Under the pieces are notes generated by a model that had not been told where the DNA came from, made no database searches, and saw nothing but the letters and a program-made list of their open reading frames with translations. 41,633 bases of DNA from the IMG/VR virus record IMGVR_UViG_3300048591_000794, positions 1 to 41,633 of that record. One strand, written 5' to 3'. The position numbers were made by a program, and so were the translations under genes. Position 1 is the first letter of the stretch. Every line of letters begins with the position of its first letter. The stretch is from a virus. This document shows, one piece after another, positions 3,549-41,629 of the stretch.

Positions 3549-3576
3549 AGTCTATCCGGGTTCAGAGCACGGTGAA
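3549..3576 (-). promoter_or_regulatory. putative promoter for the 81-aa gene, portal and protease
   Basis: Reading leftward, TTCACC (3576-3571) and TAGACT (3554-3549) are separated by 16 bp, 20 bases before the ATG at 3529. The -35 lies inside the end of terL. The -10 region GGATAGACTAG closely matches the one at 18433-18438. Confidence 0.45.
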
Positions 3577-5208
3577 CGGGCTTTCCTCGATGTCGCCGGC
3601 GTCCTCGTCGAGCATCAGGCGGCCCAGGGCCATCAGCAGGGCGACGATCATGTCGATTTTCCTGGCGTCCTGCCGCTCCGCCTTGACCGGGCGGATGTCC
3701 TCGTTTTCGTTGACCCTAACCTGGACGTTGCCCGCCTGCCAGTTGGCGACGGGGTGGCCGCCGTGGCGGATGCCGCCCTCGCTGAGGAGCCTCTCGAGAT
3801 ACTTGCATGGCCCGGTGAAGTTGACGATCGTCTGGGTGAACGGGGTGATGTTGATGCCCTCTTTCATGAGGGTGGTGATCGTGTGGACGGCGTTGTGGGG
3901 GTCGCAGGCGATGCTCCGGAACGGGGTAACCTCGTGGACGGCCATGATGTGGGCGAGGATGCAGTCGTAGTCGATGATCGACCCCTCGGTGGCGTAGATG
4001 GCCCCCTCGGCGTGCCACTGGCTGTAGGGGACGAAGTCGCGTGTTTCCCGCTCCCGCATCCCCTCCTCCGGGATCCAGACGTCCCAAAGGACGTCGATGG
4101 TGCCGTCCTCGAGCCGGAACACCCGTGTCAGGGCCGCGGTGTCGCGGGTGCTCGCGAGGTCGAGCCCGGCCCAGCACTCGTGGCCTGCGTGGTCCTCGGG
4201 CTGGCCCCCGCAGGCGTCCCACTGCTCGCGCTTGATCCAGACGGTCTCGCTCTGCGTCCAGATGTTCAACCTGTACCGCTTGAAGGTGTTGGTCTTGGAC
4301 GGGGTGTTCTCGGCCTCGATGAAGTCCTGGCGGAAGTCCTCGAGGGCGATGGTGTGCCCAAGGCTCGGGTTCGCCTTGAACCACGTGGCTTCGGCCTTCC
4401 AGTCGTCGTCGGTCCCGGCGGCGCGGATGTACGGGAAGAAGGCGAGGTCGTGGTACTGGCCGTCGGCGACCCGTTCGGCGTACTGGTGCTGTTCCCAGCA
4501 GATGGAGTTGCGGTCCCATCCGGCGGTGGTGATCGCGACCAGGAGGGGCTGGCGCCTGGCGGAGCCGGCGTACCGGAGCACGTCCCACATGAGGCGGCTC
4601 TTGTGGGCGTGCAGCTCGTCGATCACGGTCGCGCTGGCGTCGAGGCCCTCCGAGGTAAAGGTCTCTCTGGAGAGGGCGACGAGGCTGCTGCCGGTGGCCT
4701 CGAAGGTGATGGTCTTGGTGCTCTTGTAGGGCCTGGTGACGGCGGCCAGGTCCGGCTGTGCGGCGCAGAAGGCCGCGGCTTCCTCCCAGACGATGCCCGC
4801 TTGTTTCCGGTCGGTGGCGGCAAGGAAGACGCGGGCCCGCTGCTCGCCGTCGCCGATCAGCATGAAGTTGGCGATCGCGGCGGCGAGGGTGGACTTGCCG
4901 TTTTTCTTCGGGATCTCGATGTACGCGACGCGGAACCGCCGGGTGCCGTTCGGTCGTTTCCATCCGAAGAGGGGGCCGAGGACGTCCTCCCGCTGCCAGT
5001 CGAGGGGGTCGAATGGTTGGCCGGCGAGCTCGCCCTTGGTGTGGCGGAGGAACTGCCGGCAGAAGAGGATCGGGCGGTCGGCGGCGGCCCGGTCGAAGTA
5101 GTAGCCCTGGCAGGCCGCCCTCTCGTCGTTCTCGCTCTTGATCTGGTCGAGCCATCCCTCGTCGCGCGCGCGGCGGCGTGCGGCCTGGGGCGTGAGTTTG
5201 TCTGCCAT
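3562..5208 (-). CDS. terL: terminase large subunit
   Basis: The 548-aa DNA-packaging motor has both expected halves. The ATPase has the Walker A variant PKKNGKST (residues 100-107) and Walker B with catalytic Glu in TVIDELH (194-200). The RNase H-like nuclease has acidic residues D350 in GLDLAS, D436 in ACDPHN and D519 in KIDM. It matches the Terminase_1 (PF03354) layout seen in HK97-type phages and is full length. It starts 4 bases after terS ends and precedes the portal operon, as usual. The nuclease active site looks intact. Confidence 0.97.
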   Translation of the reverse strand: MADKLTPQAARRRARDEGWLDQIKSENDERAACQGYYFDRAAADRPILFCRQFLRHTKGELAGQPFDPLDWQREDVLGPLFGWKRPNGTRRFRVAYIEIPKKNGKSTLAAAIANFMLIGDGEQRARVFLAATDRKQAGIVWEEAAAFCAAQPDLAAVTRPYKSTKTITFEATGSSLVALSRETFTSEGLDASATVIDELHAHKSRLMWDVLRYAGSARRQPLLVAITTAGWDRNSICWEQHQYAERVADGQYHDLAFFPYIRAAGTDDDWKAEATWFKANPSLGHTIALEDFRQDFIEAENTPSKTNTFKRYRLNIWTQSETVWIKREQWDACGGQPEDHAGHECWAGLDLASTRDTAALTRVFRLEDGTIDVLWDVWIPEEGMRERETRDFVPYSQWHAEGAIYATEGSIIDYDCILAHIMAVHEVTPFRSIACDPHNAVHTITTLMKEGINITPFTQTIVNFTGPCKYLERLLSEGGIRHGGHPVANWQAGNVQVRVNENEDIRPVKAERQDARKIDMIVALLMALGRLMLDEDAGDIEESPFTVL

Positions 5209-9573: not shown

Positions 9574-10863
9574 CTACTCGAGGCGGACCCCGGGCTGGCG
9601 CTCGCCGTCGGCGTTGCACCGCTCGGCCTCGACCGCCGTCAGGGCCTGGTAGCGGCGGACGATCACGTCGCAGTAGCCCGGGTCGATCTCGAACCCCCAG
9701 CACCGGCGGCTCATCTGGTCGGCGGCGATCAGGGTGCTCCCGCTGCCCAGGAAGGGGTCGAGAACGATGTCGCCCGGTCTGGTGCTCCTGGCCATGAGCT
9801 CGGCGAGCATGCCGACGGGCTTCATCGTGGGGTGGTCCCGCGAGGCCTGGGGCCTGTCGAAGAGCAGGACGCTGTCGGTGGTCGGCGGCGGCGCGAGGTG
9901 GGTCTGGCCCCGTTCCTCGGGCGTCCAGCCGTAGAACACGGTCTCGTGCTGGTAGTGGTAGTCGGTGCGCCCGAGCACCAGGGCTTGTTTCTTCCAGACG
10001 AGGGTTTGCTGCCAGACGCCCTGGTCGCGCAGGGCCCGGGCGAAGGTGAGCATGGTGGTGCCGCTGGGCGCGAAGACGTACCAGACCGCCCCGGGGCGGG
10101 TGTAGGTCTTGGCCAGGTCGAACGCCGTGCGGAGGAGGGTGTCGAGGCCCTCGGGGCTGTCCCCAGCGATCGTCAGGGCGTCCTCGGTGCCGCCCTTGTA
10201 GTTGATCCCGTACGGGGGGTCGGTGATCACGGCGGCCGGTCGCGCCTGGTCGGCGGGGTCGGCGTGCACCAGGCGTATCCATGGGTGGCAGTCGTCGGCG
10301 CACGACGCGCACAGCAGGCGGTGCCGCCCGAGCCTCCAGAAATCCCCCGCCCTGGTGGTTGGTTTCTTCGGGCGCTTCGGCGTTTCCCCCTCGGTGGTGT
10401 CCGCCGGCGCCGGCGGGGCGGGCGGGCCGCGGAGGGCCTCGGCCTCCGCCGCGGTGAACCCGAGGGCCTCGAGGCCGGTGCTCTCGGCGGCGAGCTGCTC
10501 GAGCTGGTGGGCGAGGACCTGGATGTCCCAGGAGCTCAGCTCGGCGGTGCGGTTGCTGGCGATGGCGTAGGCCGCGGCGTCGACGTTGGCCTCGTCGACG
10601 ATGACGGCGGCGATGTACCTCCACCCCAGGTTCCGCGCGGCGTCGAGGCGGGCGTTCCCGGCCCTGACCACCATGCCGGCCTTCTGCACGATGATCGGCA
10701 CCCGCTGGCCGTACCGCTTCAGGGTGGCCTCGACGGCCTCGAGGCTCCGCTCGTCGTGGCTCCTGGCGTTCTCGGGGTCCTCGTTCAGGAGGTCGGTTTC
10801 GACGGCGAACTGCCGCAGGGGCGCGGCGATGTGGCTCAGGTCTTTCGTGGGTGTGGTGGGCAT
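9574..10863 (-). CDS. ParB-N domain fused to DNA methyltransferase (DPPY)
   Basis: The 429-aa protein has an N-terminal ParB/Srx-like domain (residues ~10-110, with the signature AGNARLDAA at 68-76 and IASNRTAELSSW). After a Pro-rich linker comes a beta-class amino-methyltransferase. Catalytic motif IV is TDPPYG (214-219), the SAM-binding motif LDPFLGSGST lies near 368-377, and GFEIDPGY near 390-397 supplies the acidic residue contacting SAM. DPPY points to N6-adenine methylation. Such fusions are common in phages, where they may protect DNA from host restriction. All key residues look intact. A paralogue with lost motifs lies 3 bp upstream. Confidence 0.92.
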   Translation of the reverse strand: MPTTPTKDLSHIAAPLRQFAVETDLLNEDPENARSHDERSLEAVEATLKRYGQRVPIIVQKAGMVVRAGNARLDAARNLGWRYIAAVIVDEANVDAAAYAIASNRTAELSSWDIQVLAHQLEQLAAESTGLEALGFTAAEAEALRGPPAPPAPADTTEGETPKRPKKPTTRAGDFWRLGRHRLLCASCADDCHPWIRLVHADPADQARPAAVITDPPYGINYKGGTEDALTIAGDSPEGLDTLLRTAFDLAKTYTRPGAVWYVFAPSGTTMLTFARALRDQGVWQQTLVWKKQALVLGRTDYHYQHETVFYGWTPEERGQTHLAPPPTTDSVLLFDRPQASRDHPTMKPVGMLAELMARSTRPGDIVLDPFLGSGSTLIAADQMSRRCWGFEIDPGYCDVIVRRYQALTAVEAERCNADGERQPGVRLE

Positions 10864-10866
10864 GGC

Positions 10867-12114
10867 TCAGCCGGGGTGGATGGCGGTGGTCTGGCCGGCG
10901 GTGGTGGCCTGCGCTGTGGACCTGGTGAGGGCCTGCCATCTGGCGACGATGGCCTCGGCCTCGCCGGGGCTCGGGGTGATGCCCAGGGCCCTGGCCCCGA
11001 GCTGTTCCGCGGCGATGAAGACCCCGCCGGCCCCCGCGAATGGGTCGAGGACCAAGTCCCCGCGCGCGGCGCTGTTGCGGATGGCCTTGGCGTAAAACTC
11101 GACGGGCGTGGCCCCGTCGGGCTCGCCGATCCGTGGGGAGAGCTCCCAGGTGCTCGTCTGCTTTCGGTCCGGAGGCTCCCGGCGGTCGGCGCCGGGCTTC
11201 CAGCCGTAGAGGATCGGCCGGTGGCGGTAGTGGTGGTCCTCGTGGCCTAGGTCGAGCTTCTGGCTGATCAGGGCGAGGGTCTGCCGCCAGATGTCGCCGA
11301 GCTCGCTGGCGGTGTCGATGAAGGCCGGGCCTGGTGGCGCGGTGAGGTACCAGCAGGCGCCCGCGGCGGAGTGCTCCGCGGCCAGGGCGATCGCCAGGGC
11401 GAGCACGGTGGCGGCCGGCTCGGTGTCGCCGTCGGCGTTGACCTGCAGCCGGTTCTGTTGGGGCGGGTCGCTGACCAGGAGCCTGGCCAGGTCCTCGCCC
11501 ATAAGGGCCTGGTAGGTGCCGCGGTGCGATGGGCTCCCGATCACGAGCCGGTGGTCGCCCATGGTGACGACGGAGCCGGTGCGGAGGGTGGGTTTCTCGG
11601 GCTGGGGCTGCGGGCCGGGGGTCTCTCTCTCCTCCCGGGCGGCTGTCGACCGCGCGGCCTTCGGGCGTGGGGCCGCCGGCCGGGATGCGGCGATGATCTG
11701 GTCCATCTCCGCGGCGGTGTACCCGGGGACTGAGGCCTGCCCGGCGTCGCGGAGGGTGGTCATGGTGGCGCCGAGCCTGGACTCGTCCCACCCGCTCAGC
11801 TCGGCGACGCGGTTGTCGGCGATGGCGAACCCGCGGGCGGTCTGCTCGTCGTCGTCGAGGACGGCGGCGGCGACGTGGGTCCACCCCAGGCGTCTGGCGG
11901 CCTCGAGCCTGGCGTTGCCGGCGGAGACGGTCATCGTGTCCCGCCTCACGACGAGGGTCTCCCGCTGGCCGAACCGCTTGAGGCTGGCCATGGCCTGCTC
12001 GATGCTGTGCTCGTCGTGGCGCCTGGCGTTGTTCGGGTCGGGCTTGATCGTGCCGATCTCGACCGCGAGGGCGCGGAGGGGTTCGGCGATGTGGCTGAGG
12101 TCGGGGGCGGTCAT
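10867..12114 (-). CDS. degenerate paralogue of the ParB-methyltransferase (probable pseudoenzyme)
   Basis: The 415-aa protein parallels the 9574-10863 product along its length: DLSHIAEPLRALAVEIGTI, AGNARLEAARRLGW, an Ala/Pro linker, then a methyltransferase fold. The ParB-like part is well kept, but catalytic motif IV reads SDPPQQ (215-220) instead of DPPY. The SAM-contacting acidic position in the GFEIDP equivalent reads GITPSP (378-383), replacing Glu by Thr; LDPFAGAGG (from 356) survives. The frame is fully open and tightly spaced, so the gene is maintained. It may have become a DNA-binding or regulatory partner of the active copy. A 13-bp motif copy lies in the linker at 11645. Confidence 0.85.
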   Translation of the reverse strand: MTAPDLSHIAEPLRALAVEIGTIKPDPNNARRHDEHSIEQAMASLKRFGQRETLVVRRDTMTVSAGNARLEAARRLGWTHVAAAVLDDDEQTARGFAIADNRVAELSGWDESRLGATMTTLRDAGQASVPGYTAAEMDQIIAASRPAAPRPKAARSTAAREERETPGPQPQPEKPTLRTGSVVTMGDHRLVIGSPSHRGTYQALMGEDLARLLVSDPPQQNRLQVNADGDTEPAATVLALAIALAAEHSAAGACWYLTAPPGPAFIDTASELGDIWRQTLALISQKLDLGHEDHHYRHRPILYGWKPGADRREPPDRKQTSTWELSPRIGEPDGATPVEFYAKAIRNSAARGDLVLDPFAGAGGVFIAAEQLGARALGITPSPGEAEAIVARWQALTRSTAQATTAGQTTAIHPG

Positions 12115-18157: not shown

Positions 18158-18230
18158 TTGCGGGGGCGGGAATCGAACCCGCGACCTCCGGATTATGAGT
18201 CCGGTGGGCTGACCGCTGCCCTACCCCGCT
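18158..18230 (-). tRNA. tRNA with CAT anticodon (Met, initiator Met or Ile2)
   Basis: A 73-base cloverleaf: acceptor AGCGGGG with CCCCGCA, D stem GGGC/GCCC, anticodon stem CCGGA/TCCGG with loop CTCATAA, five-base variable loop AGGTC, T stem GCGGG/CCCGC with loop TTCGATT, discriminator A. Position 1-72 is an A-A mismatch. An unpaired 1-72 is an initiator hallmark, but the anticodon stem lacks the initiator's three G-C pairs, so the identity is ambiguous. No CCA is encoded (TTC follows). Confidence 0.93.
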
Positions 18231-29855: not shown

Positions 29856-30148
29856 GCCGAGAACTCTGCGTACACCCGCTCCCTGGTCTGGTCGATCCTC
29901 GTGTGCTGGAAGTTGGTGACGGTGAGCTGGTCGAGGCCCAGGGCGGTCTGGAGGGCCTGCCAGTTGGGGTTGGCCGGGAGGACGGCGACCCCGCCGGCGT
30001 TGTGGAGGACCTCCAGGTCCATGGTGATCCACCGGCCCTGGTAGCTCCAGTAGGTGTCCCTGGCGCGGATGCGGTAGCCCCCGACGGTGATGACCTTGTC
30101 CATCATGCCGCAGAGGATGGCGTCGGCTTGGGCGCGCGTCAGGCTCAT
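29852..30148 (-). CDS. hypothetical 98-aa tail-region protein
   Basis: Not recognised. MSLTRAQADAILCGMMDKVI then YRIRARDTYWSYQGRWITMDLEVLHN suggest a compact alpha/beta domain. Coupled by ATGA to the 291-aa virion protein. Possibly a small tail-tip or assembly factor; position is the only evidence. Confidence 0.55.
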   Translation of the reverse strand: MSLTRAQADAILCGMMDKVITVGGYRIRARDTYWSYQGRWITMDLEVLHNAGGVAVLPANPNWQALQTALGLDQLTVTNFQHTRIDQTRERVYAEFSA

Positions 30149-31020
30149 GGGGCGATCGCTCGTCTGAGGGTGAAGGAGCAGATGAACGCCGCGGGTGTGC
30201 CGGCGCTGGCGGTGATGTATCCGCTGAGGATGTCGTCGGCCGAGAACGGGATGTTGAGGCCGGTGGCTTTGCCCTTGAGGGCGGCGGCGACGGAGACGGC
30301 GACGGTGCCCGTCCCGTTGATCCGCATCTCGAGGTCCCCGGTGATGCTCGCCGTGTTCGAGAAGCTCGCCTCGGTGCAGACGCCGTCCCACATCGCCACT
30401 GCGCCCGTGGTGGTGCCGCCGATCTGGTTGCCGTACCGCGCGTACATCGGGTTTGCTGTGCTCGAGTTGCCGCCGGTGAGGAGCCTGGCCTCTCCGAGCC
30501 ACTTGCCGATGGTCGCGCTGTAGTGGAAGGATTCCTCGAGGTCCGTGCGGTAGAAGGCCTGGCCGTGCGCCGGGTCGGAGGGGAACGCGGACCCGTAGGC
30601 GGCGTCCGGTGTGGCGGTGGGGTCGCTGGCGTCCGCGGAGATCAGGACGGCGGCGATGCCCGCCGTGCCGCTCTGGTCGGTGGTGACGGCGCCGCGGAGG
30701 TAGCTGTACCCCCGGCAGTCGATCACCCCCGTCATGCCCTCGGCGATAATCTGGGTGTTGGTATCGTTCCAATGGTTCCCGTCCATCGAGCCCTGGATGG
30801 TGACCGTCGTCGGGGTGCCGCCCCCTGTCCATGTGTAGGTGTCGTCGTCGATGAGGAAGGTCTGGCACCTGGCTGAGCTCAGCCCTCTGACGTCGATGGG
30901 GCTGGTGGCGTCCCCGGCGGCCTCGAGGTCGACGGCGTTGTGGTGGAGCGTGTACCCGCCGTGGTCAGGGTCCAGGGTGTCCTGCGGCGTCGGCTTGGGT
31001 GCGTTGGTGGCGTTGAGCAT
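30145..31020 (-). CDS. hypothetical 291-aa virion protein
   Basis: A beta-rich sequence typical of phage receptor-binding or baseplate-periphery proteins: YTWTGGGTPTTVTIQGSMDG, YLRGAVTTDQSGTAGIAAVL, EMRINGTGTVAVSVAAALKG. No catalytic motif. The start at 31020 lies 56 bases inside the previous gene, with a weak ribosome site, so expression probably depends on coupling. Confidence 0.62.
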   Translation of the reverse strand: MLNATNAPKPTPQDTLDPDHGGYTLHHNAVDLEAAGDATSPIDVRGLSSARCQTFLIDDDTYTWTGGGTPTTVTIQGSMDGNHWNDTNTQIIAEGMTGVIDCRGYSYLRGAVTTDQSGTAGIAAVLISADASDPTATPDAAYGSAFPSDPAHGQAFYRTDLEESFHYSATIGKWLGEARLLTGGNSSTANPMYARYGNQIGGTTTGAVAMWDGVCTEASFSNTASITGDLEMRINGTGTVAVSVAAALKGKATGLNIPFSADDILSGYITASAGTPAAFICSFTLRRAIAP

Positions 31021-31408
31021 GGCGGATGGCCCGGGCCAGGGCGGCCTTCATGGCCGAGTATATGTCTTTGAGGGGCCGGATGCACCCGCAGCCCGCGAAG
31101 CCCTCGGGGTGTTTCGGGTGGGTCCGCTTGAGCCAGACCCGGATGGGGAACGGGACGCCGTACCACTCCAGGCCGGCCCACTCGAGGGCCCCGTCGCCGT
31201 CCGGGTGGCGGCGGTCGGGGCAGGGCTCGTCGCCGAGGATGTGGTGCACGATATCGGTGGGTGGGTCGACCGCGCCGCAGGCGATGGCGGCCCCCTCGAC
31301 GGTGAGCCCCTGGCCCCGTATGGCGTGCGGGCAGGTCGCGCACATGGCCGCTTTGGTCCGGACGGTTTCGTTTGGGCCCTCGCCCGCCCCGCAGGTGTTG
31401 CAGCTCAC
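30965..31408 (-). CDS. 147-aa Cys-rich protein in the tail operon
   Basis: Not recognised. MSCNTCGAGEGPNETVRTKA then AMCATCPHAIRGQ gives a CxxC...CxxC zinc-ribbon-like start; further Cys at DEPCPD and GCGCIRP. The middle (ALEWAGLEWYGVPFPIRVWL) is hydrophobic-aromatic. It is coupled by ATGA to the 461-aa Cys-rich tail protein, so the two may act together, for example as a metal-binding tip. A variant 13-bp motif is at 31265. Confidence 0.6.
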   Translation of the reverse strand: MSCNTCGAGEGPNETVRTKAAMCATCPHAIRGQGLTVEGAAIACGAVDPPTDIVHHILGDEPCPDRRHPDGDGALEWAGLEWYGVPFPIRVWLKRTHPKHPEGFAGCGCIRPLKDIYSAMKAALARAIRHAQRHQRTQADAAGHPGP

Positions 31409-32790
31409 AGGAAGTCCTCCGCGCCGACGCGGCGGGTGGTCGGCGGTGGGGCGGCTCCCCCGCCGATCTGGCTCCCGGCGCCGCTGGGGATCGGCTGCTT
31501 GCCCGGGCAGCCCCCGCCGCAGCCCGGGGGCTGCTCACGGATGATCACGGAGGTGTGGACGCTCAGGCGCTTGTCCTCCTCGGTGCGGGCGCCCTGGCTG
31601 TTCGACCATCGGTACTTCCAGTCGATGAAGATGGTGCTGTGGTAGCAGCCCGCGGAGACCTTCCATATGCCCGTGCACGCCGATGGTTCGCATGTCTCGT
31701 AGGTGCCCTGGCACGCGTTCCTCTCGTACCCCGCCGTTTGCGACCAGGTCTCGGGCGCGTCCCCGTGGAAGAAGCACGGCCCCCGGTCCCATGCCCGCAT
31801 CAGGCATCCCGGGTCGCCCCGGCCGGTGACGCTGTTGTAGTCGGGGTGGCCGCAGTCGTCGACGACGTACTCGGTTCTGACGGTGACGAGCTCGCCGTGG
31901 AGCATGTACCGTTCTATCTTGGTGACGAGGCTGCTGATGGAGACGCACCCGGCGTAGATCGGGCCCTTGGCCCACTCGACGATCGAGGCGGACCTGCCGA
32001 TGGTCGTGAACTCGCTGATGTTGCCGTTGGAGTCGATGCTGTAGTTCCGGTGCTTGCCGGCGGTGTAGCTGACGGTCCACCACCTGCTCCCGCAGCAGCA
32101 GGTGACGGCCTCGCCGTTGTTGTCCCGGTTCCAGCAGTAGGGGTACCCGGGCGTGTTGTGGTTGGCGGGGACGATGTTGTAGTCGCACCCGCCGGCGCAG
32201 CTGTAGCAGCACTCGCAGCAGGCGGCCTGGGGCGTCCAGGCCTGGTGCCAGTCGTAGATGTCGAGGTCGGCGACGGTCCAGCCGTCGGTCGATCCCTGGT
32301 GGTAGCGGCTGTGGGGCCCGACGATGATGCACCCGCACCCGGCGCCGAAGTGGGCCCACCAGCACTTGGTCAGGTCCATCTCCGGGGGCGGGCAGACGAG
32401 GATCTTGTCGGTCGGGTTCCCGCACGGGGTCTGGCATGTGTCGGCGACGAGGTAGCGGCCTTCCCTCGCGCACCTGGGGTCGGAGCACGTGCCGATGCAC
32501 TCGACGCCGTCGTCGACGAGGATGGCCCCGTCGGGCAGCTCGCACCGGCCCGGGGGGGGCGGCCCGGGCTCGCTGTGGTACTTGCACTGGTCGGTGTTGA
32601 GCCAGCAGCCCTCGAGCTCCGGGTGGTCGAGGAGGATGATCTGGTACCAGAGTTGGGCGCCGTTGGCGCACCGGAGCGTGCCCTTCACGTAGATGTCTGG
32701 CCCGCGGTCCTGGCACTGGCTGTTTGCCGGGCAGGGGACGAAGTGGATGTAGTAGGCCCCCTTGCAGCAGCAGGCCCGGTGGAGGCTCAC
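31405..32790 (-). CDS. very Cys-rich 461-aa distal tail protein
   Basis: GTG start at 32790. I count about 38 Cys (8%), with clusters such as ACCCKGAYY at the N-terminus, CECCYSCAGGC, TCCCGSRWWTV and the C-terminal GCGGGCPGKQ. Trp, Tyr, Gly and Asn are also abundant, as in extracellular or carbohydrate-binding domains. No known family recognised. It sits where a tail-tip or receptor-binding protein would be expected. Cytoplasmic assembly of so many cysteines suggests several bound zinc or iron ions, or disulfide formation after release. Its GTGA overlap with the 175-aa gene supports the frame. Confidence 0.7.
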   Translation of the reverse strand: MSLHRACCCKGAYYIHFVPCPANSQCQDRGPDIYVKGTLRCANGAQLWYQIILLDHPELEGCWLNTDQCKYHSEPGPPPPGRCELPDGAILVDDGVECIGTCSDPRCAREGRYLVADTCQTPCGNPTDKILVCPPPEMDLTKCWWAHFGAGCGCIIVGPHSRYHQGSTDGWTVADLDIYDWHQAWTPQAACCECCYSCAGGCDYNIVPANHNTPGYPYCWNRDNNGEAVTCCCGSRWWTVSYTAGKHRNYSIDSNGNISEFTTIGRSASIVEWAKGPIYAGCVSISSLVTKIERYMLHGELVTVRTEYVVDDCGHPDYNSVTGRGDPGCLMRAWDRGPCFFHGDAPETWSQTAGYERNACQGTYETCEPSACTGIWKVSAGCYHSTIFIDWKYRWSNSQGARTEEDKRLSVHTSVIIREQPPGCGGGCPGKQPIPSGAGSQIGGGAAPPPTTRRVGAEDFL

Positions 32791-33314
32791 GGCGGTTCCT
32801 CGCAGGTCCCGTCGACGGGGTTCTCCCACGAGAACCAGGCCTCCTTGGCGCTTGCGTCGGCCAGCGTAACGATGGTGAGCAGCACCGGGGTGCCGTCCGG
32901 GCATGGGCGGAGTGTGAACCCGTCGGGGAAGTCCTCGCCGTCTAGGTCGATGCCGTTGCCCTCGACGCCGGACCCGTCGTTGATGTCCTCGGTGAGGTTG
33001 AAGCAGACGCCGGTCCTGCCGGCCGGTTTGTCCGTCCATCCTCCGTAGCCCGTGGCGGTCTTGGCGGCCTCGGTGTAGTTGTACCGGTATCGGTTCGGGC
33101 CGTCCTCGGTGTGGCCGGTGATCGTGGCCCAGAAGGTCTGGCGGGGGAGGGGGGATCGGGCGGCCAGGCCGATGACGATCCGGCCGCGGTGCTCGGAGAT
33201 CTCGATGCCGGGCCCGGCGTCAAAGGCCGGGATCATGCTCACGATGGTGTTGAGGTCCTCGGCGAGGAGGAGGTCGCCGGTGCGGAACTTGGGGAGCTCG
33301 GTGGTCGGTGGCAT
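32787..33314 (-). CDS. hypothetical 175-aa tail protein
   Basis: A beta-rich protein: PKFRTGDLLLAEDLNTIVSM, then ISEHRGRIVIGLAARSPLPR, FWATITGHTEDGPNRYRYNY. The early segment resembles the N-terminal attachment regions of phage tail-tip or fibre proteins. Only three Cys, in contrast to the next gene. Located between the tape-measure-distal protein and the Cys-rich protein. Confidence 0.62.
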   Translation of the reverse strand: MPPTTELPKFRTGDLLLAEDLNTIVSMIPAFDAGPGIEISEHRGRIVIGLAARSPLPRQTFWATITGHTEDGPNRYRYNYTEAAKTATGYGGWTDKPAGRTGVCFNLTEDINDGSGVEGNGIDLDGEDFPDGFTLRPCPDGTPVLLTIVTLADASAKEAWFSWENPVDGTCEEPP

Positions 33315-33317
33315 GGG

Positions 33318-34085
33318 TCACCCCGGGAACTTGCTCGAGAAACTCTTGGTCGGGTAGACGGTGACGGTCTTGTACCCCTCGCCGAGCACCAGGTCGGGCG
33401 GCGGCTCCCCGGTCTCGGGGTCGGTGAAGATGATGTCGGGGTCCCACCCCTCCCGCTGGAACTCGAACTCGTAGTTCATGCGCCAGCGCTTCGGCGTGGT
33501 GGTGGTGTCGGCCGGTTCGAAGGTGACGCTGGTGCAGAGCCATGTGCCGGGTGGGCCGCCGTTCCAGAGGGCCTGGTTGACGAACCCGGCCCAGAGCAGG
33601 GTGGTGACGCCGGGGCTGTTGGTGGCCTCGATGATGCTGGCGCGGAGGGTGCTGTGGGGGCCCAGGGCGTCGACCGTCCCGCCCTGCGTGACGCCGTTGT
33701 GCGTGACGGTGATCTGGGCCCCGCCGATGTCGAGCTGCGTGGAGAGCTGGCGGAGGGCGGTGCCGCCGCTATAGGTGATGTCGCTGCCGGGCGGGTCGTC
33801 GGGGTCGGAGAACTCCTGCCGGCGGTACTCGATGGTGACGATGGCCTTGCGTTTGTCGGTGAGCCTCGGCCGCCGGCGCTCGAGCACGATGGTCTGGCCG
33901 TTGATGGTGAGGGTGTCGCCGACCTCGGGGAGCCCGGCGTCCTTGAGGCAGTACTCGAGGGCCTCATCGATGGTCTTGTCGGTGTCCCAGGTCACCAGGG
34001 CCTCCCTGGTGGCCCCGACGATGAGGCCGGCGATCTCGTCGCAGGTCATCGTGCCTTCGAGGATGTCGATGGTGGTTTCTGCCAT
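33318..34085 (-). CDS. distal tail-region protein, 255 aa
   Basis: Not assignable to a named family. Directly downstream of the tape measure, where distal-tail (Dit-like or lambda M/L-like) proteins usually lie. Sequence is mixed alpha/beta (TIDEALEYCLKDAGLPEVGD; KAIVTIEYRRQEF; ITVTHNGVTQGGTVDALGP; WRMNYEFEFQREGWDP). Three bases separate it from the tape measure gene. Confidence 0.65.
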   Translation of the reverse strand: MAETTIDILEGTMTCDEIAGLIVGATREALVTWDTDKTIDEALEYCLKDAGLPEVGDTLTINGQTIVLERRRPRLTDKRKAIVTIEYRRQEFSDPDDPPGSDITYSGGTALRQLSTQLDIGGAQITVTHNGVTQGGTVDALGPHSTLRASIIEATNSPGVTTLLWAGFVNQALWNGGPPGTWLCTSVTFEPADTTTTPKRWRMNYEFEFQREGWDPDIIFTDPETGEPPPDLVLGEGYKTVTVYPTKSFSSKFPG

Positions 34086-34088
34086 GGT

Positions 34089-35591
34089 CTACCCCAGCCT
34101 GGCCGTCTGGCCGTCGCGGATGTTGCGGTCGATCGAGGCGAGGTGGTCGTTCGTGACCTTGAGCTGCGGGTCCTCGACCTTAGCGGGCTTGGAGGTTGCG
34201 CCCGGGGTGCCGCCGAGGGCCATCCGCTCGAGCTGGACCTGGCGGAAGCTCGCGGTCTTGGCCGGCTCGGTGGCGGTGGCGGACTCGAGGGCGTCGCGGG
34301 CCTGTTGGACGGCCCGCCCGTGGGTTTCGAAGTCGATGAGGTTCTGCTCGAGCAGCTTGTTGAGCTCGTCGATGGCCTGCTGGTACTTCTCCATCGGGGT
34401 GCGGGTGGCGTTGAAGACCCGCTCCGCGGCCGATTCCATGGTTCGGAGGGCGTCGGCGTGGGCCTCGGCGGCCTCCAGGGCGGCGTCGGCGTCCTCGTCG
34501 AATGTCCGCATGTTCTCGCTGGTGGCGGCGATCTGGTCGGCGGTCTCCTGGGCGGCGTCCTGGATGGCGTTCATGGCGTTGACGACGTTGGCGCCCCAGT
34601 CCTGGCCCTCGAGGCCCTCCAGCTCGCGCTCCAGCTTCTGGATCTGGCGGTTGAGCTCGAGCAGCTCCCGGGGGTCTTTCCAGAGCCCTTCGAGGCCCTC
34701 GCGGGCTTCCAGGGCGGCGATTTTCATTCTGAGCCAGGCCTTGACGACGGCCTGGATGGCGTTTGCCGCGGTCCCGGCGGCGACGGTGGCGGCGGTCATG
34801 GCCTGTTCGGCGATGCCCGCGGCGCCCTTGCCCTGGGTGGCCCAATCGATGAAGGCCTGGGCGCCCGCGGCGATGAAGGGGGCGACCTGGACGGCGATCT
34901 GCCTGGCGAGGCCGTTGAAGAGCTCGCGGAGCTCGCTCACGCGGTCGTTCGCGGCCTCGATCTTTGAGACGTCCGCCCGGTCCAGGGCGAGCCCGAAGAG
35001 CTCTGCTTTTTGCTGCGCGTCCTCGAACGCCCCCGCCCCGGCCTGGAGGGTGTTCAGCAGCGTGACGCCGCTGCGGCCGAAGAGGTCGAAGGCGGCGGTG
35101 ACCCGGTCGGCCTGGCTGGGGAGGGCGTTAAGCCGCTCGCCGATGAGGCGGAACTGCTCGTCGGGGCTCATCCGCTTGAGTTCCTCGACGGTGAGCCCGA
35201 GCCTGGCGAGGGCGTCGGCCTGGGCGCCCGTGCCCTTCTCGGCGTCGCCGATGCTCTTGAGCATCTTGGCGATGCCCTTCTCGAGGTCCTCGTTCGAGGC
35301 GCCGGCGAGGTTGGCGGCGAGCTGGAGGCCGGCGAGTTTCTCGGTCTGGATGCCCAGGCGGTCGCTCGTCTTGGCGATCGCGTCGGCGGCGTTGAGCTGC
35401 TGGATGGTGAGGGCGGTGAGGCCGGCGGCGGCGGCGAGCCCGGCGGCGGCGCCGATCGCGCCGAGGACCTTGCCAACGCGGAGGGCCGGCCCGGCGAAGT
35501 TTTTCAGGGTCTGGCCGGCGCTCATGAAGGCCTTCTGGAAGGCCGCGGTCCGTCCGACGAGGGCGACGCTCAGCTTGGCGATGGTGGTCAT
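34089..35591 (-). CDS. tape measure protein
   Basis: The 500-aa tail-length ruler has the common N-terminal tape-measure domain (LVGRTAAFQKAFMSAGQTLK; LQLAANLAGASNEDLEKGIA; ADRVTAAFDLFGRSGVTLLN), hydrophobic Gly/Ala segments near residues 36-62, and a second half of long charged coiled-coil helices (EGLWKDPRELLELNRQIQKL; DADAALEAAEAHADALRTME). At about 1.5 angstroms per residue it implies a tail of roughly 75 nm, at the short end for siphoviruses. The start overlaps the T-frame stop by ATGA. Its place after the G/GT chaperones is canonical. Confidence 0.93.
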   Translation of the reverse strand: MTTIAKLSVALVGRTAAFQKAFMSAGQTLKNFAGPALRVGKVLGAIGAAAGLAAAAGLTALTIQQLNAADAIAKTSDRLGIQTEKLAGLQLAANLAGASNEDLEKGIAKMLKSIGDAEKGTGAQADALARLGLTVEELKRMSPDEQFRLIGERLNALPSQADRVTAAFDLFGRSGVTLLNTLQAGAGAFEDAQQKAELFGLALDRADVSKIEAANDRVSELRELFNGLARQIAVQVAPFIAAGAQAFIDWATQGKGAAGIAEQAMTAATVAAGTAANAIQAVVKAWLRMKIAALEAREGLEGLWKDPRELLELNRQIQKLERELEGLEGQDWGANVVNAMNAIQDAAQETADQIAATSENMRTFDEDADAALEAAEAHADALRTMESAAERVFNATRTPMEKYQQAIDELNKLLEQNLIDFETHGRAVQQARDALESATATEPAKTASFRQVQLERMALGGTPGATSKPAKVEDPQLKVTNDHLASIDRNIRDGQTARLG

Positions 35592-35956
35592 GGTTTCGCC
35601 CCGCGGCCCCGCCTCTGGGCCTCAGCGTACTCGTGCATCCTGGCGTACTGCATGATAACCTCGCCGATCTCGACGGGGTCCATCTGCCGGGGCCGGGCCT
35701 CGCCCCACCAGTCGATGAGGAAGTCCCGCACCTTGAACGGCCGCTCGCGCTGCGGGTTGCGGTGGCGGTTGGCGATGGTGGCCGCCAGGTTGGCGGCGAG
35801 GATGTCGAGGCGGGCCGGTCCGATGGGGCTGATGGCGTCGTACGCCATCCAGTGGGCGAACTCGTCGGCGTCGATGTCCTGTTGCGCCCGGCGAACGCTT
35901 GTGCCCAGGGCGAGGGCGAGGGTGTACCAGAACCTCAGCCCCGGCCGGTTTCGGAG
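35588..35956 (-). CDS. tail assembly chaperone T extension (made by -1 frameshift)
   Basis: An open frame in the -1 phase relative to the G gene, with no good start or ribosome site of its own. Read after slippage at 35956-35962 it continues LRNRPGLRFWYTLALALGTS then ADEFAHWMAYDAISPIGP, which matches the lambda-T type (EFxxW-xxx-xxPxG) tail assembly protein. 122 residues would be added to the first 121 of G, giving a GT fusion of 243 aa. GT-type proteins guide tube polymerisation around the tape measure. The stop overlaps the tape measure start. Confidence 0.85.
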   Translation of the reverse strand, partial: LRNRPGLRFWYTLALALGTSVRRAQQDIDADEFAHWMAYDAISPIGPARLDILAANLAATIANRHRNPQRERPFKVRDFLIDWWGEARPRQMDPVEIGEVIMQYARMHEYAEAQRRGRGAKP

Positions 35957-36318
35957 TTTCCCTGCAGCTCGGCGATGGCGGTCTCGGTGAGGTGGTTGAT
36001 GCGGGCGGCGGCGTCGAAAATCCGGTTGATCGCCGACCCGTCCCGGGCTCCGAGTTTGTCGATGTCGCCGGGCTCGGTGAAGAGGCGGTTGCCCTCGGCG
36101 TCGCAGCATGTGTAGACGCAGACCCGCTGCTTCCCGCGGGCGATGTCGGGCTTGCCGTCGGCGCTCTTGGCGTAGTAGGTTTCTTCCTCGAACCGCCCGC
36201 GCTCGACGCCGTTCATGGTGCGCACGAACACGAACCCGTTCCACTCGGGGACCTCGACGCGCTCCATCTTGGCGTCGTCGGCCTCGAGGATGGCCTTGCG
36301 TGTCAGCTCGTTCGTCAT
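35935..36318 (-). CDS. tail assembly chaperone G
   Basis: The 127-aa protein begins MTNELTRKAILEADDAKMER; the middle FVFVRTMNGVERGRFEEETY and the C-terminal helix IDKLGARDGSAINRIFDAAARINHL are typical of siphovirus tail assembly chaperones upstream of the tape measure. Good ribosome site (GGAGGAA) before the ATG at 36318. The slippery heptamer near its end allows a minority GT product. Confidence 0.85.
   Translation of the reverse strand: MTNELTRKAILEADDAKMERVEVPEWNGFVFVRTMNGVERGRFEEETYYAKSADGKPDIARGKQRVCVYTCCDAEGNRLFTEPGDIDKLGARDGSAINRIFDAAARINHLTETAIAELQGNSETGRG
35956..35962 (-). promoter_or_regulatory. programmed -1 ribosomal frameshift site GGGAAAC
   Basis: On the coding strand the heptamer reads G-GGA-AAC in the G frame, the X-XXY-YYZ slippery form (lambda uses GGGAAAG). 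It lies seven codons before the G stop (35937-35935), and the -1 frame is open to 35588. A short GC-rich dyad (CCGGCCGG) follows within ten bases. Confidence 0.88.
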
Positions 36319-39846: not shown

Positions 39847-41202
39847 TCAGGCGCGGGCGGCGATGCGCACGAAGGGGGACCGCTGCTTGGCGGAGTTGAC
39901 GGGGGTGAGGGCGCTCCGCCACCAGGGCGCGCCCGCGTTCCTCAACCAGAACTTGAAGGTTCGCTCGTGCTCGAGGAACCGGACATGGATGCTGGCGGCC
40001 TGGTTGAGGTTCTCGAGGGTGCCCTCGAGGTACTGGGTCCAGTTGCCGAGCATGATGTCGCCGGCGTCGCCGACGGTCTCGCAGTGGTCGGAGAAGGTGA
40101 TGGGGCGCCCGAGCAGCATGTCGGGGATGTCCTGCCCGGTGCTCGGGTGGAAGATCCCCGTGTCGGTGCCGCCGGCGGGGTTCTTCACGGCGGAGAGGGT
40201 CGGGATGCAGTCGGGGTTGGCGAGCCAGACGGCGTTCTGGTACCCGTAGCACTGGGCGCGGGCCTTGATCAGGTTCTCGTAGACGATCGTGTCCGCGGCC
40301 TGGCTACCTTCCTTGGCGATGGTGATCAGGCAGGGGCTGTTGTTGACGCCCAAAAACTCGCCGACGCCGGAGCCGTTGAGGTACTCGTAGATGAGGCGGC
40401 TGTTGAACTCGTCCTGGAAGCCGCTGGCGATCAGGGCGGAGAAGGAGATCGGGCTGTCGGCCAGCAGCTCCTCGCTGGCGTAGGCGGCGCCGAAGAGGCT
40501 GTAGGCGTGCAGGGTGACTTGCTCGAACTGCATGCGGCTGGCGGAGCCGGCCTTGGTCTCGAGGCGGCGGGCGACGGTCAGGCCGCCGCTGACGCTGGTG
40601 GAGTGGTCCTTGTCCACCCGCGCCGGGATGCGGACGATGGGCGTCGCCATGGGGATTTTGGTGGTGCCGAGGGTGAGGCCGGCGTCCTCGGGTCTGACCT
40701 GGAGCAGGGTGGGGGAGAATCCCTCGGGCAGGAGGAACCCGCCGTAGGCCTGGTCGCCCTCCTGCTGCTCGTCGCTGCCCGCGGCGGCGCTGACGCCCAG
40801 GCCCTGGAGGCGGTCGCTCATGCGGCCGGTGGTGCCGTAGGCGCGGACATCCTCGAGGAACTCGGCGTGGCTTCGGTACCCGCGGTTGGGGTCCTGGTCC
40901 CGGGCCTCGCCCAGAACCTTGACGCTGGGGTCCGCGCCCCTCGTGGTGGCGCTGGCGGGGCTGCCCGACGCGGGGTTGCTGCGGCGGCCGGTGGGCTCTC
41001 CGAGGCTCGTGGTGGCGGCCTCGGCGCGCTCGCGGCGCTTGATGTCGGCGGTCAGGGCCTCGGCCTGGTCGAGGGCCTGGTCGTGCTCGGTGGCCTCGGC
41101 CTCGGTGAGGTCTCTGGACTCGGCGTCGGCCTTGGCCTGGAGCTCGTTGGCCTTCGTGATGAGGGCCGCCCGCTGGTTGCGGAGTTTCTGCAGGGGGTTC
41201 AT
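39847..41202 (-). CDS. major capsid protein (HK97 fold)
   Basis: The 451-aa protein has an N-terminal ~110 residues of coiled-coil scaffold-like (delta) region (LRNQRAALITKANELQAKAD; DQALDQAEALTADIKRRE) that the S49 protease presumably removes. The capsid domain follows with YGGFLLPEGFSPTLLQ, KIPMATPIVRIPARVDK, YASEELLADSPISFSALI, GVNNSPCLITI, RPITFSDHCETVGDAGDIMLGNW shortened and a C-terminal VRFLEHERTFKFWLR. This is the PF05065-type major capsid layout and about the usual precursor length. ATG 41202 with AGGAGA. A promoter lies about 170 bp upstream, next to the repeat array. Confidence 0.95.
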   Translation of the reverse strand: MNPLQKLRNQRAALITKANELQAKADAESRDLTEAEATEHDQALDQAEALTADIKRRERAEAATTSLGEPTGRRSNPASGSPASATTRGADPSVKVLGEARDQDPNRGYRSHAEFLEDVRAYGTTGRMSDRLQGLGVSAAAGSDEQQEGDQAYGGFLLPEGFSPTLLQVRPEDAGLTLGTTKIPMATPIVRIPARVDKDHSTSVSGGLTVARRLETKAGSASRMQFEQVTLHAYSLFGAAYASEELLADSPISFSALIASGFQDEFNSRLIYEYLNGSGVGEFLGVNNSPCLITIAKEGSQAADTIVYENLIKARAQCYGYQNAVWLANPDCIPTLSAVKNPAGGTDTGIFHPSTGQDIPDMLLGRPITFSDHCETVGDAGDIMLGNWTQYLEGTLENLNQAASIHVRFLEHERTFKFWLRNAGAPWWRSALTPVNSAKQRSPFVRIAARA

Positions 41203-41400: not shown

Positions 41401-41418
41401 GAGGCCTGTCGCGGCCCG

Positions 41419-41629
41419 AGCAAACCCCCCGGCACACCCCCGGGTACAGCTTTCGTCGGAACCGGGTGCTCCGGGGCGCCAGCAGAACGCTGGGAAAGCC
41501 CCCTGGGTCCAGCGCGCAGAATCGGGCCCGAGCAAACCCCCCGGCACACCCCCGGGTACAGCTTTCGTCGAAACCGGGTGCTCCGGGGCGCCAGCAGAAC
41601 GCTGGGAAAGCCCCCTGGGTCCAGCGCGC
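41419..41629. repeat. 112-bp tandem direct repeat array, right part
   Basis: Units start at 41419 and 41531 (112 bp apart); the second runs to about 41629, four bases from the window end. The unit at 41531 is identical to the one at 21, and the unit at 41419 carries the TTTCGTCGGAA variant. With the left part there are five units in all, or four if the terminal ones are the same copy. Confidence 0.95.

Follow-up and report, generated by a model that had tools for sequence, protein, structure and literature searches.

What is a 461-amino acid (aa) protein carrying 38 cysteines doing among the tail genes of a bacteriophage? Phages rarely use binding proteins rich in disulfides, since their virion proteins fold in the reducing cytoplasm. 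The protein, referred to here as CYS (Cys-rich slot protein), is encoded in a stretch of 41,633 nucleotides, the window, that makes up the entire IMG/VR record IMGVR_UViG_3300048591_000794. A sequence-only reading of this DNA had named CYS a distal tail protein and had taken its clustered cysteines to suggest either metal binding or a disulfide-armoured receptor-binding domain.

The window encodes an HK97-type siphovirus, recognizable by the following genes:

3562-5208: terminase, with thousands of phage relatives
1566-3287: portal
614-1588: S49 protease
39847-41202: major capsid protein

The same 112-bp tandem repeat is found at both ends of the record (14-276 and 41413-41629), and the gene order continues across the contig ends; the genome is therefore probably circular or permuted, and nearly complete. 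In a circular genome, the repeat array would lie between the protease and capsid genes; it is probably within this array that the assembly broke. Elsewhere in the window, two adjacent genes (9574-10863 and 10867-12114) each encode both a ParB-N-like and an N6/N4 DNA methylase domain, and a single tRNA-Met(CAT) gene is located at 18158-18230 on the minus strand.

CYS is part of a run of tail genes, in which the tape measure is followed by the genes designated 33318, 32787, CYS, 30965, and 30145:

35935..36318, minus strand: tail assembly chaperone (phrog_344, E = 5.4e-23)
34089..35591, minus strand: tape-measure protein, 500 aa (phrog_9483, E = 1.4e-56)
33318..34085, minus strand: 33318 gene, 255 aa, first after the tape measure; a conserved family that anchors the synteny
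32787..33314, minus strand: 32787 gene, 175 aa, directly upstream of CYS and overlapping it; likely docking partner
32802..32804, minus strand: Cys codon of the 175-aa protein, five residues from its C-terminal end (...DGTCEEPP)
31405..32790, minus strand: CYS, 461 aa, 38 Cys; GTG start at 32790, stop codon at 31405-31407
32764..32772, minus strand: N-terminal Cys triplet (CCC) of CYS, residues 7-9; a hallmark common to the slot proteins of relatives
32206..32220, minus strand: CCECC cluster of CYS, residues 191-195
32092..32100, minus strand: CCC cluster of CYS, residues 231-233
30965..31408, minus strand: 30965 gene, 147 aa with 8 Cys, coupled to CYS by GTGA; occupies the position of the small Cys gene in relatives
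30145..31020, minus strand: 30145 gene, 291 aa, overlapping the 147-aa gene; tail-fibre-like by eye

The 291-aa protein had no significant match in family libraries, including PHROGs. At the other end of the run, the chaperone gene is followed by an 86-aa frame (together 35588-36318) that may be its frameshift extension.

The interval 31405-32790 had been correctly delimited by the sequence-only reading and only its strand needs correction: the gene lies on the minus strand, not the plus strand. The G+C content of CYS by codon position (0.56/0.55/0.95) is the same as that of this phage's other genes, so the frame is coding. All 38 Cys codons are TGC, and the earlier estimate of about 38 cysteines, or eight percent, proved exact: Cys accounts for 8.2% of CYS, as compared to a background of 0.99% across nine further ORFs from this part of the genome (the flanking tail genes plus 28405 and 27547), with a binomial probability of 6.6e-23 for at least 38 of 461 residues. 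The clusters are equally real, starting with the N-terminus MSLHRACCC, and the remainder of the protein is a long aromatic body with many Cys and His. GTGA overlaps join the CYS start to the upstream gene and its stop to the downstream gene, and Shine-Dalgarno-like GAGGA and GGAGGA sequences precede these coupled starts. Hydropathy analysis of CYS gave neither a signal peptide nor a transmembrane segment.

Remote homology searches and structure prediction, both proposed with the sequence-only reading, were run and left CYS without a family. CYS had no match in Pfam, PHROGs, NCBIfam, PADLOC, the PDB, INPHARED, viral contigs, or genome contigs, nor among 48 records whose terminase or tape measure is related, and family searches gave no Dit, gpL, rubredoxin, or zinc-ribbon match. 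An AlphaFold model of CYS alone, predicted without an alignment, had a pLDDT of 33 and is meaningless. For the 33318 family, AlphaFold reached a pLDDT of 59, and Foldseek searches with this model returned nothing significant (best E = 0.07); a likeness to SPP1 Dit, at rank 26 with a TM-score of 0.16, is not evidence. An all-frame scan for Cys-rich ORFs yielded mostly out-of-frame artefacts and was discarded.

Gene order proved more informative. Many IMG/VR phages share the gene that immediately follows the tape measure, and a profile of the 33318 family found 49 loci. In what follows, L-numbered loci are phage contigs from IMG/VR, the longer of which were reached through TerL relatives; the window's 33318 protein matches those of L175 (E = 1e-24), L213 (5e-11), L135 (3e-7, in a small set), and L078 (1e-6). 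A few genes on, most phages of this family encode, in order, a protein of roughly 110-200 aa with the motif F..xxAxRIAxxVRxxE (RIA), a very Cys-rich protein, and a small Cys-containing protein. In all 30 distinct RIA-bearing loci, the gene after RIA starts within -10 to +17 bp of it, and its product opens with a Cys cluster (CCC, CSPCC, or CxCC), followed in most, not all, by a Cys-rich body; we call this position the slot. For instance, L135, the closest relative by head genes, has RIA, a 152-aa protein starting MPIGPCLCNCDPCP, and a 108-aa Cys protein that overlaps it by ATGA. Slot frames in the 30 loci were chosen as those with the most Cys, and because this choice favours Cys, control frames were picked by the same criterion downstream of other gene families. 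The median number of Cys in the first 80 aa was nine after RIA versus one to three after the other families, and all chosen frames were coupled only after RIA. Choosing frames by codon-position G+C alone, blind to Cys, gave the same picture at most loci.

The slot proteins themselves are heterogeneous. Many have an odd number of Cys, those of L118, L110, and L078 contain only 1.6-3% Cys, and the bodies tested were absent from Pfam and PHROGs. In the nearly identical phages L129 (6480-7241) and L130 (8387-9148), the slot protein starts MTLVLKAGAIIVEGGLLGAGQDCCCG, with its CCC, and continues into a very long poly-Ser tract, in which the two phages differ. In L100 (5958-7358), L101 (7135-9465), and L125 (9390-11588), the Cys cluster is preceded by a conserved run of hydrophobic residues that may be a membrane or signal segment. 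L123 (11597-13369) has two Cys-rich genes in a row, with 18 Cys in the first and 26 in the second, which also contains GACC...GTTC-type repeats. Another slot type, in L213 (11388-14812) and L175 (6836-8571), starts RSPLGVFFRSPLGVRG or RSDLGAFTRSELDVRGD, which suggests that another short N-terminal anchor motif is used at this locus.

Comparing close relatives revealed that the start of the slot protein is kept while its body is exchanged. Between L079 and L123, identity is 98% for the 33318-family protein, 99% for RIA, and 100% for the slot N-terminus, but 16% for the slot body; among L089, L090, and L091, the N-terminus is 85-86% identical and the body 21-42%. L175, whose 33318 protein is nearest to that of the window, fills the slot with an unrelated 392-aa protein of few Cys that has the same GTGA start overlap. 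This exchange is seen for the slot in relatives, the window phage itself being without a close relative. A constant anchor, exchangeable bodies, and a tail-tip position would together mark slot products as receptor-binding proteins. The receptor-binding part of the earlier reading gains from the position of CYS in the tail operon and from the receptor-binding-like evolution of the same slot in relatives.

The upstream partner has a hallmark of its own. In 26 of 30 RIA proteins, Cys occurs within the last 20 residues (11.8 expected for random placement), and in 25 of these, within the last seven. After removal of similar tails, Cys was found in the last seven residues of 16 of 21 RIA proteins versus 3 of 96 proteins from seven other families. 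The partner ends in DGTCEEPP in the window, GGCS in L182, and DDCV in L168. Terminal Cys was absent in six loci with other slot types (Fisher's P = 1e-4, for classes assigned post hoc among related phages). In about half of the RIA proteins, the last Cys is preceded by another at a distance of 9-16 residues and could form an internal disulfide with it instead of docking.

The reading we favour, at somewhat better than even odds, is that CYS is a tail-tip adhesion protein of the receptor-binding type, held in an exchangeable slot, docked by terminal cysteines, and oxidised once it has left the cell. The slot, which closes the series of tail-tip genes, would be an exchangeable position for adhesins. 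The short N-terminal segment ending in the Cys cluster would dock CYS to the product of the preceding gene, which in most loci has a Cys at its C-terminus, and the long, aromatic, Cys-rich body would recognise the host surface. The cysteines would stay reduced in the cytoplasm, with disulfides forming once particles are released; these would harden the body and possibly cross-link chains and dock. For CYS, we infer its presence in the virion, receptor binding, disulfides, and the docking chemistry from these patterns.

The spacing of the cysteines bears indirectly on their chemistry. Across 22 Cys-rich slot proteins, CC and Cx5C occur more often than expected (z = 6.1 and 5.3, respectively), and CxxC does not (z = -0.3); CYS has three CxxC, where 3.1 are expected by chance. 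CC and Cx5C without an excess of CxxC is the pattern of disulfide-rich extracellular domains, unlike that of zinc ribbons. Of the two options raised at the outset, spacing favours disulfides over zinc in CYS and the slot proteins; with CxxC enriched in neither, metal binding is the less favoured option. This weighs, as does the lack of a gpL, rubredoxin, or zinc-ribbon match, against the possibility that CYS is a structural tail protein that folds in the reducing cytoplasm, its cysteines ligating Zn or Fe-S clusters as in λ gpL. Such tail tips do exist, as λ gpL has a Cys-ligated iron-sulfur cluster (PMC10721106), CYS has many Cys and His, and its coupled 147-aa neighbour contains CxxC motifs, yet we regard this account as unlikely.

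It is slightly less probable still that CYS is a late protein made for use outside the virion, acting on the host envelope or competing phages by superinfection exclusion or envelope disruption. Its location late in the run of tail genes would suit such a role, as would the hydrophobic starts before the Cys cluster in L100, L101, and L125. However, CYS itself lacks a hydrophobic signal or transmembrane stretch, is tightly coupled to the upstream tail genes and the downstream 147-aa gene, and has no PADLOC match, and body exchange behind an unchanging N-terminus is what tail adhesins typically show.

Whether CYS belongs with the slot proteins at all is a fair question. It is a translationally coupled gene, a few genes after the tape measure and a 33318-family gene, with a Cys cluster within its first ~45 residues and an upstream partner with Cys near its C-terminus. 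The N-terminal motif of this partner, FRTGDLLLAEDLN, resembles by eye the gene in the same place in L175, L213, and L141. By profile comparison (hhalign), the 147-aa and 175-aa proteins had no homology to the neighbours in relatives, the 175-aa protein aligning to the RIA family with a probability of 0.1%, and CYS had no detectable homology to slot proteins, whose bodies are also mostly non-homologous to one another. Membership consequently rests on position and hallmarks, which we consider the best reading, not on sequence homology. Should CYS instead be an orphan tail-region protein whose Cys content is a quirk of its lineage, as the lack of homology of CYS, 32787, and 30965 to the relatives' cassettes would allow, then the shared upstream family, gene order, coupling, N-terminal CCC, terminal Cys upstream, and small Cys gene would all have to coincide, which makes this account improbable.

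Some bacteria (Planctomycetota) have cell walls rich in Pro and Cys that are stabilised by disulfides (PMC3035269), and the repeat style of some slot bodies prompted the thought, and only that, of a planctomycete host. A thiol-reactive entry device, in which free or strained cysteines exchange disulfides with such a cross-linked protein wall and attach the phage covalently, would suit the unusual frequency of adjacent Cys (CC, CCC) in the slot family, but two scans of genome contigs gave no bacterial genome with the cassette that would identify the host, and we hold this to be the least probable account.

Returning to docked adhesins, a bolder generalization, which we put forward only tentatively and consider doubtful, is a ‘cysteine dock’ widespread in uncultured phages: the C-terminal Cys of one tail protein would capture the Cys cluster at the N-terminus of any of a set of interchangeable Cys-rich adhesins, allowing unrelated bodies to be swapped and covalently locked after release, with exposed thiols or disulfides perhaps also reacting with a disulfide-linked host wall. 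If true, the recurrent Cys-cluster slot, its exchanged Cys-rich bodies, and the partner's terminal Cys would amount to an undescribed way to attach and diversify tail adhesins, testable with recombinant proteins. The arrangement is absent from the family libraries searched, and a limited literature search on Cys-rich receptor-binding proteins and Cys-rich tail proteins of planctomycete phages found no description of it; the slot looks like an interchangeable, disulfide-hardened host-binding device new to that literature.

How does CYS compare with known tail proteins? Like siphophage Dit, it is encoded soon after the tape measure; unlike Dit, it is the third gene after it, not the first (33318 and 32787 lie between), and has no Dit domain match. 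The name distal tail protein, a label based on position, is not supported. Like λ gpL, CYS is a Cys-containing tail-region protein made in the cytoplasm; gpL-type proteins have four ligating Cys in a conserved domain, whereas CYS has 38 with different spacing and matches neither the family sequence nor its four-Cys cluster domain. In the Agrobacterium phage Milano, Cys15, Cys24, and Cys26 at the N-terminus of the tailspike form inter-chain and baseplate disulfides, the virion tails have extensive disulfides (PMC10811340), and reduction destabilises the particle (PMC10491603). The Milano tailspike and short tail fibre (gp124 and gp31) resemble slot proteins in having N-terminal Cys on a receptor-binding protein, a comparison that claims no sequence relation; Milano is a myophage with ~2% Cys across its virion proteins, whereas in the window, CYS alone has 8% and the other tail proteins ~1%. 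Finally, the modular receptor-binding proteins of siphophages resemble the relatives' slot proteins in combining a conserved N-terminus with an exchangeable body; the slot proteins differ in their very short anchor ending in a Cys cluster and in their unrelated, Cys-rich bodies.
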